Part shown: piece by piece, positions 28,699 through 33,443 of the stretch
How the letters are laid out: each line of letters starts with the position of its first letter
Numbering within the stretch: the first letter of the stretch is position 1
Assembly (NCBI GenBank): GCA_003134685.1
Contig: PLCA01000002.1
Span: 273,966 to 337,965, forward strand
Direction: 5' to 3'
DNA length: 64,000 bases
Origin: Gemmatimonadota bacterium
Lineage (GTDB): Bacteria > Gemmatimonadota > Gemmatimonadetes > Gemmatimonadales > Gemmatimonadaceae
Notes under the pieces: generated by a model
Databases searched by the model: none
Seen by the model: only the letters and a program-made list of their open reading frames with translations
Told to the model about the DNA's origin: nothing
Program-made: the position numbers and the translations under genes

Positions 28699-29550
28699 TC
28701 AGGCGGCGCGGGAGGCCAGCACGTAGTCCACGAGCCAGTCGCGGTTTAGCTGCCTGAAGGTGGCATCGCGGAGGAGCCCGGCCGCGAGCAGCATCTCGTG
28801 GGCGGGCTGGAGCACTCGTTGCAAATGGGAGGGATACCGCTGGGTCAGAGGAAGCTGCTCGGCGAGGGACGCGAGGGGTACTCTCCACGTTACCATTCCC
28901 TCCTCTCTCGCGACTTCTAGCAGCCGGTAGAGCCTTCTGGCAACGGGATTGGTGAGAGACATGTAGTGGGTCGAAGAGAGCGTCACGGTGTGTCCCGCCG
29001 CGATGTTCGCGCGGATTGTTGGACCGATCGTTATGTGTGCGTCGCCCGGCTCCGAAGCGGTGAGCACGGGAAACAGCGTGAATTGTTCGCGCTCCGCCAT
29101 TCGTCGGCGCGCGATGGAAACCGAGGAGAGAATGGTAAAGCGTCCTTCTAGCGGCTGTCCTTCTTTTGCCGCAACGTACACTCCGCTCGACTCGAGAGTA
29201 GTCCGCTCGAGTCGAGTCAGTGCGGATCGTAGCTGCTCGTATGTTCTGCCGTCAACGCGCCGACCGATGGAGCGGAGGAAGGCGTGGAGCGTAAAGCTTA
29301 TCACTCCGTCTTCGGGAGCTCCCGCCTCGTGGTAACGATGGAGGAGCTCGATGTACACGTCCTGATCGAAGGTTCCGGGCAAGCGGTCGCCCGGGCTGGG
29401 CAGCACACGCCACCGCCCGCCGCTCTCGGGAGAGAAGGAAATTGCCGTGTCCTCGGCGGAATCGCTCAGTCGGAAGATCGGGAGCGCTTCGAGGGAGCGG
29501 TCGAGAACGATAGCACGCGTCGCGATTCGTCGACGGGCCACGAAGGTCAT
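28699..29550 (-). CDS. replication initiator protein A (RPA)-like protein
   Basis: About 283 residues from the ATG at 29550; a GTG at 29568 is also in frame. The protein resembles the RPA family of plasmid and chromosomal initiator-like proteins: PGTFDQDVYIELLHRYHEAG, GVISFTLHAFLRSIGRRVDG, then YEQLRSALTRLERTTLES, and a second winged-helix-like region TNPVARRLYRLLEVAREEGM with PLTQRYPSHLQRVLQPAHEM. RPA proteins bind iterons to start plasmid replication. Here it sits among chromosomal housekeeping genes and no iterons are visible nearby, so it may be a domesticated regulator. Its start is only 11 bases from the divergent cardiolipin synthase start. Confidence 0.75.
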   Translation of the reverse strand: MTFVARRRIATRAIVLDRSLEALPIFRLSDSAEDTAISFSPESGGRWRVLPSPGDRLPGTFDQDVYIELLHRYHEAGAPEDGVISFTLHAFLRSIGRRVDGRTYEQLRSALTRLERTTLESSGVYVAAKEGQPLEGRFTILSSVSIARRRMAEREQFTLFPVLTASEPGDAHITIGPTIRANIAAGHTVTLSSTHYMSLTNPVARRLYRLLEVAREEGMVTWRVPLASLAEQLPLTQRYPSHLQRVLQPAHEMLLAAGLLRDATFRQLNRDWLVDYVLASRAA

Positions 29551-29561
29551 GCAGAGAGAAT

Positions 29562-30860
29562 ATGTCACTGATCAAGTACATAGCAATCGCGGCGCTCAGT
29601 CTGTTCGGGCTGGTTCTGGCGCTTATCGGCATTTTGTCGGTGACTCACGACACGCCGGTTACGAGCGTAATCGCGGAAGGCGACAAGGACGGGCCGCCGA
29701 GCGTCGAGGATCCGCTGTTTGCCCGGAGCATCGAGCTGTTCACGGGAACGCACATCGACCCCGGCAACAGCGTGCAGATTCTGCTGAACGGAAACGGCAC
29801 GTACCCTCTACTATGGAAGGATATCGGCTCCGCCCAGCGCACCTTGACGGTGCAGATGTACTACTCGCAGCCAGGCGCGGTCGCCGACACGATGGCGAAG
29901 TATCTGATGGATCGCGCGCAGCACAAGGTGCGCGTGCTGCTGCTGCTCGATGCGTTTGGGTCCCAGCCGCTCAAGCGGGAGTGGCTTGACAGTCTCAAGC
30001 GCGCCGGCGTCGAGGTCAGGTGGCTGAGACCTCTTCGCTGGTACACACTCCAGAAGGCAGCCCAGCGATCGCACGTTCGCGTGGTCGTGGTCGATGGAAA
30101 GATCGGCTACACCGGAGGGTTCGGGCTAGCCGACTATTGGCTGGGAGACGGCCATCACGCGGACCAATGGCGCGAGACCAACGTGCGATTCGAGGGGCCG
30201 ACGGTGTCAGCGCTGCAAGCAGCGTTTGCGGCGGCTTGGGCTGAAGCGACGGGCGAACTGCTGACGGGCGACCTGTTCTTTCCAAAGAGTTCTTTTGCCG
30301 ATGTCGGAGACGTGCAGGCCGGCCTGATGTACAGCATTCCCAGCACCGGAAGCACGCCGGCGGAAAGATTTCTGGCGCTGTCGATCGCAGGCGCCAGAAA
30401 AACGCTCTACATCAGCAACTCATACTTCGTTCCGGGCGAGAATTTCATGCAGCTGCTTCTGGCGGCAGCGAAAAGGGGTGTCGACGTTCGGGTTATCACG
30501 GTGGGCGACAAGACCGATGTGAAGACGACCTGGTACGCGGGGCGAACCTACTACGAGAAGCTCCTCGAGGGCGGCGTGAAGATCTACGAGTACCAACCGA
30601 CGATGATGCACGCGAAGAGCATTGTAGTGGACGGCATCTGGTCTTACATGGGATCCATGAACTTCGACAACCGTTCGCTGTCCTTCAACAACGAGTCGCT
30701 ATTGGTGTCGCTCGACCGCCACGTTGGAGCACAAATGGACTCGATCTTCATTGATGACATAAAATGGTCCAAGGAGATCAAGCTCGACGAGTTCAGAAAG
30801 CGGCCACTCTCGGGGAGGATTCTGGAGTGGGGAGCGCAGAAACTGAGGCGCGTACTCTAG
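29562..30860 (+). CDS. cardiolipin synthase (phospholipase D family)
   Basis: A 432-residue protein with one N-terminal membrane span (residues about 5-25, ALSLFGLVLALIGILSV). Two phospholipase D repeats are present. The second motif is canonical (HAKSIVVDGIWSYMGSMNFD, HxKxxxxD). The first reads HVRVVVVDGKIGYTGG, with Arg instead of the usual Lys. The enzyme joins two phosphatidylglycerols, or phosphatidylglycerol and phosphatidylethanolamine, into cardiolipin at the inner membrane. An AGAGAG stretch lies upstream of the ATG. Downstream of the stop, 80 bases separate it from the convergent MerR-like gene. Confidence 0.9.
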   Translation: MSLIKYIAIAALSLFGLVLALIGILSVTHDTPVTSVIAEGDKDGPPSVEDPLFARSIELFTGTHIDPGNSVQILLNGNGTYPLLWKDIGSAQRTLTVQMYYSQPGAVADTMAKYLMDRAQHKVRVLLLLDAFGSQPLKREWLDSLKRAGVEVRWLRPLRWYTLQKAAQRSHVRVVVVDGKIGYTGGFGLADYWLGDGHHADQWRETNVRFEGPTVSALQAAFAAAWAEATGELLTGDLFFPKSSFADVGDVQAGLMYSIPSTGSTPAERFLALSIAGARKTLYISNSYFVPGENFMQLLLAAAKRGVDVRVITVGDKTDVKTTWYAGRTYYEKLLEGGVKIYEYQPTMMHAKSIVVDGIWSYMGSMNFDNRSLSFNNESLLVSLDRHVGAQMDSIFIDDIKWSKEIKLDEFRKRPLSGRILEWGAQKLRRVL

Positions 30861-30942: not shown

Positions 30943-31488
30943 TCAGCGGATGTCGCCGCGGCCCAGCGCCGCGCGCACCGCTTCGCGCATTGCGATCACG
31001 GCTTCCTCGCGGGCGGCGGGAGAATCTTCACGAACGTGAAGCTCGATCCCATCGGCAACAGGAAGACGGTGCCAGCGCAGTGAGATATCGTCGTCGTGGG
31101 CGACGGCTTCGTATCCGCCGGAGTCGAGCGCCGGGGCGAGCGACGTTGCGATCTTCCGCTCGAGCGCATCGCCAGTGACATCGCGCATCTCGCCCCGGAT
31201 GGTGTCGAGGCTCTGTCCCTCGCGCTGGCGGATCTTGATGGACAGCAGCTGGAGGAGATGCCGGTACCCGTAGGTCGCGCCCGTGCCAGTGCCCTCGGGC
31301 CGGTCGAGCAGTCCACTCGCCACGTAAAACCGAACTGCTCGCGCGCTCGGCGCCGCTCGCGCCGAGGCATTGGTTGGTCGAACTCCGGCTGCGTCTACAA
31401 GAGCTGTTGCGTGGGCTGCAAGTCCGCGGGCGTTCCAGGGAGCATGTCGAGCGTGGGCGCGGAGGAGAGCGACAGGCGATTCAGCCAT
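30943..31488 (-). CDS. MerR-family transcriptional regulator
   Basis: A 181-residue protein. Residues about 45-110 match the MerR winged helix (SARAVRFYVASGLLDRPEGT, YGYRHLLQLLSIKIRQREGQ, SLDTIRGEM). The N-terminal 45 residues are Ala-rich and the conserved first helix-turn is poorly kept, so the true start may be internal. The C-terminal half has no metal-binding cysteines, and a strand-rich segment (DISLRWHRLPVADGIELHVR) may sense an unknown ligand or pair with partner proteins. The gene overlaps the 3' end of the upstream hydrolase gene by 94 bases in another frame, so the two are probably co-transcribed. A perfect palindrome lies before the hydrolase. Confidence 0.72.
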   Translation of the reverse strand: MAESPVALLRAHARHAPWNARGLAAHATALVDAAGVRPTNASARAAPSARAVRFYVASGLLDRPEGTGTGATYGYRHLLQLLSIKIRQREGQSLDTIRGEMRDVTGDALERKIATSLAPALDSGGYEAVAHDDDISLRWHRLPVADGIELHVREDSPAAREEAVIAMREAVRAALGRGDIR

Positions 31489-32529: not shown

Positions 32530-33282
32530 CTAGCGCTTCCGCTTGCGGGTCCCGCCGCTCTTTGCGCGCGCCTTCGACCCCGCTTTGGGAGCCTTCCGAC
32601 TACCCGGCTTTTTGGCCGTGGCTTTACGTCCAGCAGCCTTCTTGGCTGGCTTCCGCGTTCCGGAAGACTTTTTCTTGGCCGGCTTCTTCCCGCCAGAAGA
32701 CTTGGATGAGCTCTTCGCGGCTTTCTTTTTTGCGCCGCCAGCCGCTTTGCCGGCCCCGGCACGGCTTGCGGAGGTAGACGTTGCCACCGGTCGTGCGGCA
32801 GGGGAAGCTGGCCCACCGCCGAATGAGCTGGTCCGTGCCGCTCCCGGCGAGGTGCTTCCACCGCCGAATCCCCCGCTTGACCCCGTTGAGGGCGGGCTGC
32901 CAAAACCCGAGGCGCCGCCCATCCCGCCGGCTCCGCCAACGGGCCCGCCGCCGCCGAGGGTCGATTCCTGCTTCTTCCCCGATCCCTTGGGCCGGCCCCT
33001 TCTTCCTCTTGGAGCGCCCCCGCCGAATAGATCTTCCTCTTCGTCCTCTTCGTCCTCTTCGCCTTCGCTTACTACCGTAGCGTCGGAATCGACCTCTTCG
33101 TCATCATCCGCGTCTTCAGCGCTGTCCCACAGGCGGTCGCTGTGATCCTCATTGATCGCCCAGCCACCATCTTCGTCGTCGTCATCGTCGTAGGAACGCT
33201 TGCCGCGACTGAAGCCACCGAGATCGTCCGCATCGTCGTCGTCCGCAAAACGCAATGGCTCCACTGATTCACCGCTCGGCAT
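32530..33282 (-). CDS. composite acidic / AT-hook / lysine-rich nucleoid protein
   Basis: About 250 residues from the ATG at 33282, which has GGGAGG three bases upstream; the in-frame ATG at 33294 lies before that ribosome-binding site. Order of segments: an acidic region (about residues 12-85, with runs of Asp and Glu such as DDDDDEDGG and EGEEDEEDEEEDLFGG); an AT-hook-like RGRRGRPKGSGKK (about residues 90-103); a Gly/Ser-rich spacer (about residues 105-150); and a Lys/Ala tail (about residues 165-250, KKPAKKKSSGTRKPAKKAAG). The tail is histone H1-like and the hook should bind AT-rich minor grooves, while the acidic part could act like a histone-chaperone tail. I know of no named family with this combination. 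Confidence 0.75.
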   Translation of the reverse strand: MPSGESVEPLRFADDDDADDLGGFSRGKRSYDDDDDEDGGWAINEDHSDRLWDSAEDADDDEEVDSDATVVSEGEEDEEDEEEDLFGGGAPRGRRGRPKGSGKKQESTLGGGGPVGGAGGMGGASGFGSPPSTGSSGGFGGGSTSPGAARTSSFGGGPASPAARPVATSTSASRAGAGKAAGGAKKKAAKSSSKSSGGKKPAKKKSSGTRKPAKKAAGRKATAKKPGSRKAPKAGSKARAKSGGTRKRKR

Positions 33283-33443
33283 TAGTCCTCCCATAGAATG
33301 TCAGCACTCGCGCTGGTAGCGCGGAATTTTCTGAGTTTCGCCCGCTGCACGTCGCGTGCCTTATGCGCCAGCGCCGAAAGCTCTCTACTCTGGACACCGA
33401 ATACAACTCCGGTGACGCGACGTCAAGGAGCGACTTTCCGCGC

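Follow-up and report, generated by a model that had tools for sequence, protein, structure and literature searches.

The closest known system to the protein described here is the C-terminal domain of CarD from Myxococcus xanthus. This domain is disordered and consists of an acidic segment followed by RGRP AT-hooks (PMC4374960, PMC8156234, PMC9304148). In the CarD orthologues of Anaeromyxobacter and Vulgatibacter, a tail resembling histone H1 replaces the hooks, and in CarD the two kinds of DNA-binding module, AT-hooks and H1-like tails, are interchangeable (PMC8156234, PMC9304148). AlgP and PhaF from Pseudomonas have a disordered, Lys/Ala/Pro-rich, H1-like C-terminal tail, and AlgP tails of the KPAA type bind DNA (PMC9239181). 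In eukaryotes, AT-hooks and an acidic segment are combined in the disordered HMGA proteins, as described for HMGA2 (PMC4482583). HMGA proteins carry three hooks, and their acidic segment is located at the C-terminus.

Chlamydial Hc1 and Hc2 and similar bacterial H1-like proteins are basic, lysine-rich and of low complexity. This composition is shared by an intrinsically disordered protein of 250 amino acids encoded on the minus strand (32530..33282, -) of the window, the whole stretch of 64,000 nucleotides analyzed here from a genome of the Gemmatimonadaceae. The acidic head, Trp motif and AT-hook of the 250-aa protein are absent from Hc1 and Hc2. A Hc1/Hc2-type profile was not matched in Pfam at E values up to 1, a search in which such profiles detect low-complexity tails poorly.

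An acidic segment followed by an AT-hook or an H1-like tail, all of it disordered, occurs in the same order in CarD and in the 250-aa protein, and inside the Gemmatimonadaceae, too, the basic tail occurs now with a hook and now without one. The preliminary description knew of no named family with this order, for which the CarD C-terminal domain provides a precedent (PMC4374960, PMC8156234, PMC9304148). In CarD, however, the domain is fused to an N-terminal domain that binds RNA polymerase and CarG and that the 250-aa protein lacks in Pfam. The RNA-polymerase-binding domain PF02559 is absent from it at E values up to 1, and for this reason the protein is not a CarD; it is a stand-alone counterpart of the CarD C-terminal domain. 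Moreover, CarD has three or four hooks, whereas nearly all Gemmatimonadaceae members have one at most; no Trp motif has been described in CarD, which belongs to a different phylum. CarD is encoded in an operon with carG; next to the gene studied here, the constant neighbors are a MerR-type gene, a response regulator, MqnA and others. The only CarD_TRCF match of the genome (G000:C16:132231-132398) lies inside an ORF of 1166 aa, presumably Mfd, and no stand-alone CdnL was found there by the PF02559 search.

The likeness to AlgP and PhaF concerns the tail; their N-terminal domain is helical, in contrast to the acidic disordered head found here, and no AT-hook has been described in them. Compared with HMGA, the acidic segment comes first and is followed by a single hook and an H1-like tail. 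The hook RGRPKGS resembles those of HMGA, in what would be a likeness and not necessarily homology. No Pfam family was matched by the protein at E values up to 1, and a profile search of solved structures gave no match. A match in NCBIfam to the tail of a valyl-tRNA ligase was rejected as reflecting composition only (24.8 bits, with a cut-off of 1783). In the open-access literature, no paper was found describing the protein or its expression in Gemmatimonas, and no proteomic, transcript or ChIP data for it.

The gene and the anatomy of its product

The reading frame extends on the minus strand from an ATG at 33282 to a stop at 32530. The preliminary description had given exactly these limits, leaving the strand unstated; the plus-strand reading of the interval contains six stops. 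A Shine-Dalgarno sequence, GGGAGGA (33286..33292, -), precedes the start, and a similar sequence is located 5' of 105 of 108 homologous starts. An upstream ATG at 33294 was discarded as a start because it overlaps the Shine-Dalgarno sequence. A promoter scan for the gene found none. An antisense ORF of 200 aa (32543-33145, +) overlaps the gene, and the two frames cannot be told apart from GC content at codon positions. The minus strand is favored because of selection and the Shine-Dalgarno sequence, and the 250-aa ORF is, as judged from sequence evidence, a real gene.

Translation bears out the succession of acidic head, AT-hook, Gly/Ser linker and H1-like Lys tail proposed in the preliminary description, which overlooked a conserved Trp motif inside the head. 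The head (residues 1-90; 33013..33282, -) has an Asp plus Glu fraction of 0.43 and a net charge of about -34. It includes the Trp motif GGWAINEDHSDRLWDSA (residues 39-55; 33118..33168, -), whose version in the window is GGWAINEDHSDRLWDS. The AT-hook RGRRGRPKGSGKK (residues 92-104; 32971..33009, -) contains RGRRGRPKG, an RGRP core with basic residues and Pro on its flanks, in the window and in 16 congeners. It is followed by a poorly conserved linker rich in Gly, Ser and Ala (residues 105-175; 32758..32970, -) and by the Lys/Arg-rich, H1-like tail (residues 176-250; 32533..32757, -), in which composition is kept and sequence is not. In three homologous loci (L107, L109 and L113) the acidic head is longer, and a second acidic stretch lies beyond the AT-hook.

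The last 80 residues of the protein contain no acidic residue, and the charge of -34 in the head is opposed by +39 in the remainder. Across 76 members the means are -34 and +41, and a test for compensation between head and tail charge gave only a weak correlation (r = -0.32). Charge segregation reaches 0.54, against 0.18 +/- 0.03 in shuffled versions with a maximum of 0.27. The window contains 134 ORFs with a length of 150 aa or more, of which this one alone exceeds the threshold for acidic residues or that for lysine. Self-inhibition and phase separation, both suggested earlier, would fit such charge blocks.

Comparison with six congeners gave dN/dS values of 0.02-0.09 for the head. Residues 91-104, which include the hook, show no amino-acid change, with synonymous differences of 0.09-0.93 per site. 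Head and hook are thus, on the pattern of substitutions, under strong purifying selection, and the linker and tail sequences drift quickly. An acidic head and a basic tail are features of nearly all members of the family. Within the head, (L/I)W(D/E) is present in 106 of 108 homologues, and nine residues separate it from G(W/Y) in 92 of 101 matched members, eight in the remaining nine. The comparison of homologues indicates that the family signature is G(W/Y)-x9-(L/I)W(D/E) and not the AT-hook.

An AlphaFold run with a 27-row alignment yielded a mean pLDDT of 47.5, with no residue at 70 or above. A single helix of six residues was predicted (residues 48-53), located on the Trp motif, and no structured helical N-terminal domain of the AlgP/PhaF type. 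The low confidence fits a disordered protein, and the predicted helix is no more than a hint of folding upon binding.

Distribution, AT-hook turnover and neighborhood

One copy is present in the genome of the window (3.6 Mb, 98% complete), and nearly all genomes with a match are single copy. Among 60 related genomes searched with the single sequence, matches were obtained in 17 of 18 other genomes of the same genus, in 11 of 18 from the rest of the Gemmatimonadaceae (one of them weak and broken) and in none of 24 from two other families of the order. A profile covering the N-terminal 100 residues (A2), with only first-look candidates scored, matched in 118 of 395 Gemmatimonadota genomes, all of them in the Gemmatimonadaceae. 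At least 20 genomes of this family gave no match, so that the lineage does not strictly depend on the protein, unless copies there escaped the search, which may have missed some. A wider scan of genome contigs recovered at least three relatives among the matches listed, titled Gemmatimonadaceae or Gemmatimonadetes; none were found on plasmids or viral contigs. From 108 homologues extracted for comparison, the complete order of head, AT-hook, linker and Lys tail was recognized in about 13 Gemmatimonadaceae genera, including Gemmatimonas-type genomes (L131); homologues with the same order, whose lack the preliminary description had named as grounds for rejecting its reading, therefore exist. Most of the genomes surveyed are drafts, and low-complexity tails allow frameshift or assembly errors. 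At one locus (L150, in G106, a single contig of 5,179,092 bases) the Lys tail is apparently frame-shifted, and the ORF continues into the downstream histidine kinase to a total of 792 aa. The cause could be an error in sequencing, slippage within the repeats or a genuine fusion, and a frameshift or assembly error is likely.

The AT-hook is less regular. In 106 members, called by pattern and not by binding, the GRP core is intact in 59, altered to GR[RKQ]P in 22 and absent from 25; among the weakest calls is the doubtful SGGAGRP of L031. The hook noted in the preliminary description is therefore present in the window, without being a universal part of the family. Its absence or alteration in 47 of the 106 rules out minor-groove binding as the core function. 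A genome search with the Pfam AT_hook model PF02178 was silent, as were its controls, and is uninformative. The state of the hook is uniform within most genera. On the tree of the neighboring MerR-type gene, the GRP core requires nine parsimony changes, far fewer than in shuffles, and at least four of them are forced by well-supported branches. This tree is a quick one with many weak forks, for which reason gains and losses of the hook are indistinguishable.

The MerR-type gene, which encodes a helix-turn-helix protein (30943..31488, -; Pfam MerR_1), is the most constant neighbor. Of 80 loci with a length of up to 10 kb, some of them truncated at contig ends, 62 contain it, invariably downstream and in the same orientation. 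Its product shows 64-79% identity among the loci of the family that were compared. In the genus of the window, an alpha/beta hydrolase gene lies between the two. The upstream neighbors are either MqnA, a menaquinone gene, or a histidine kinase together with an HD-domain response regulator; the MerR-type gene is often followed by genes for an RPA-type replication initiator and for a CtpA-like protease of type S41. Within 1.5 kb of the MerR-type gene, no such disordered protein was detected in the genomes without a match or in two other families of the order.

The gene is on the origin side of the chromosome. Its distance to dnaA is about 75 kb in its own genome and 58-113 kb in seven others; three genomes of the Gemmatimonas-type genus have it at 238-329 kb, and one genome at 687 kb. 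RPA-type initiators (PF10134) are known from plasmids. The one in the window (28699-29568, -) is chromosomal, about 71 kb from dnaA. PF10134 matched in 36 of 37 Gemmatimonadaceae genomes and in none of 24 from two other families, the same span as the gene of the disordered protein.

Proposed function and rival explanations

It is reasonably probable that the protein is a disordered, stand-alone nucleoid-associated protein of the Gemmatimonadaceae, working like an HMGA joined to a histone H1 tail. This reading is favored because of the single copy, occurrence of all matches in one family, constraint, charge segregation, predicted disorder, origin-side position and the CarD and AlgP analogies. 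A bacterial chromatin factor, as proposed in the preliminary description, thus stands as the best-supported interpretation, without the hook as a fixed part. We infer DNA binding, autoinhibition, partner docking and a nucleoid role as follows. The Lys/Arg tail would bind DNA phosphates without sequence specificity, and the AT-hook, where present, may give an extra minor-groove foothold on AT-rich tracts. The acidic head would compete with DNA for the basic tail, so that binding stays dynamic. The head would also present the Trp motif, probably as a docking site that folds when its one conserved partner binds. Against a nucleoid role, the basic tail could equally bind RNA or polyphosphate.

The head might instead dock RNA polymerase, a sigma factor or the neighboring MerR-type regulator, with hook and tail anchoring the complex on promoter DNA. 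Such a CarD-like transcription cofactor would be in keeping with the acidic segment followed by a hook or H1-like tail common to CarD (PMC4374960, PMC9304148), with the MerR-type gene being downstream on the same strand wherever it was found, and with a genome that has no stand-alone CdnL and whose only CarD_TRCF match is in the 1166-aa ORF. It is doubtful, however, given that the RNA-polymerase-binding domain is lacking, that the MerR-type gene also occurs without an adjoining 250-aa protein in other families of the order, and that the HMGA-like domain of CarD is inactive on its own (PMC4374960). A role as a chaperone for basic proteins (HU or ribosomal proteins, for example), which the acidic head would shield, or as an RNA-side factor with a tail that binds RNA, appears unlikely: an AT-hook unchanged within the genus points to DNA, and no ribosomal or RNA-function gene is a constant neighbor. 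Eukaryotic histone chaperones nevertheless use acidic blocks with aromatic residues, and one HU is encoded in the genome.

A tether between granule and nucleoid like AlgP and PhaF, with the tail holding DNA or polyphosphate and the head a granule protein, is quite unlikely. Polyphosphate does accumulate in Gemmatimonas aurantiaca, but granule genes are not among the constant neighbors. AlgP, which has an H1-like KPAA tail, resides on polyphosphate granules, whose spacing requires it, yet its N-terminal domain is predicted to be helical (PMC9239181) and the head studied here is predicted to be disordered and is acidic. It is highly improbable that the frame is merely non-functional, low-complexity sequence in GC-rich DNA, as the overlapping antisense ORF, the failure of codon-position GC to tell the frames apart and the quick drift of tail and linker might suggest. 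Purifying selection on head and hook refutes it, and the SD-like sequence at 105 of 108 homologous starts and the synteny across many genera also speak against it.

Significance for the Gemmatimonadaceae

The protein of the window looks like an apparently uncharacterised chromatin protein of one soil-bacterial family, and offers a concrete candidate for a factor that structures the chromosome in Gemmatimonadota. For the chromosome architecture of this phylum, a dependence on nucleoid structure has been proposed (PMC11237797). More tentatively, a family-specific chromatin protein with an acidic, partner-docking head may have arisen beside the RPA gene of the same span in an origin-side block and contribute to the unusual chromosome organization reported for Gemmatimonadota. 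As the Trp motif is fixed, a search for the partner would be straightforward. If the 250-aa protein is a nucleoid protein, the turnover of its AT-hook would serve as a natural experiment in how a basic tail gains from a hook, and the family would offer a bacterial equivalent of HMGA and H1 domains that stands alone and occurs in the culturable Gemmatimonas.
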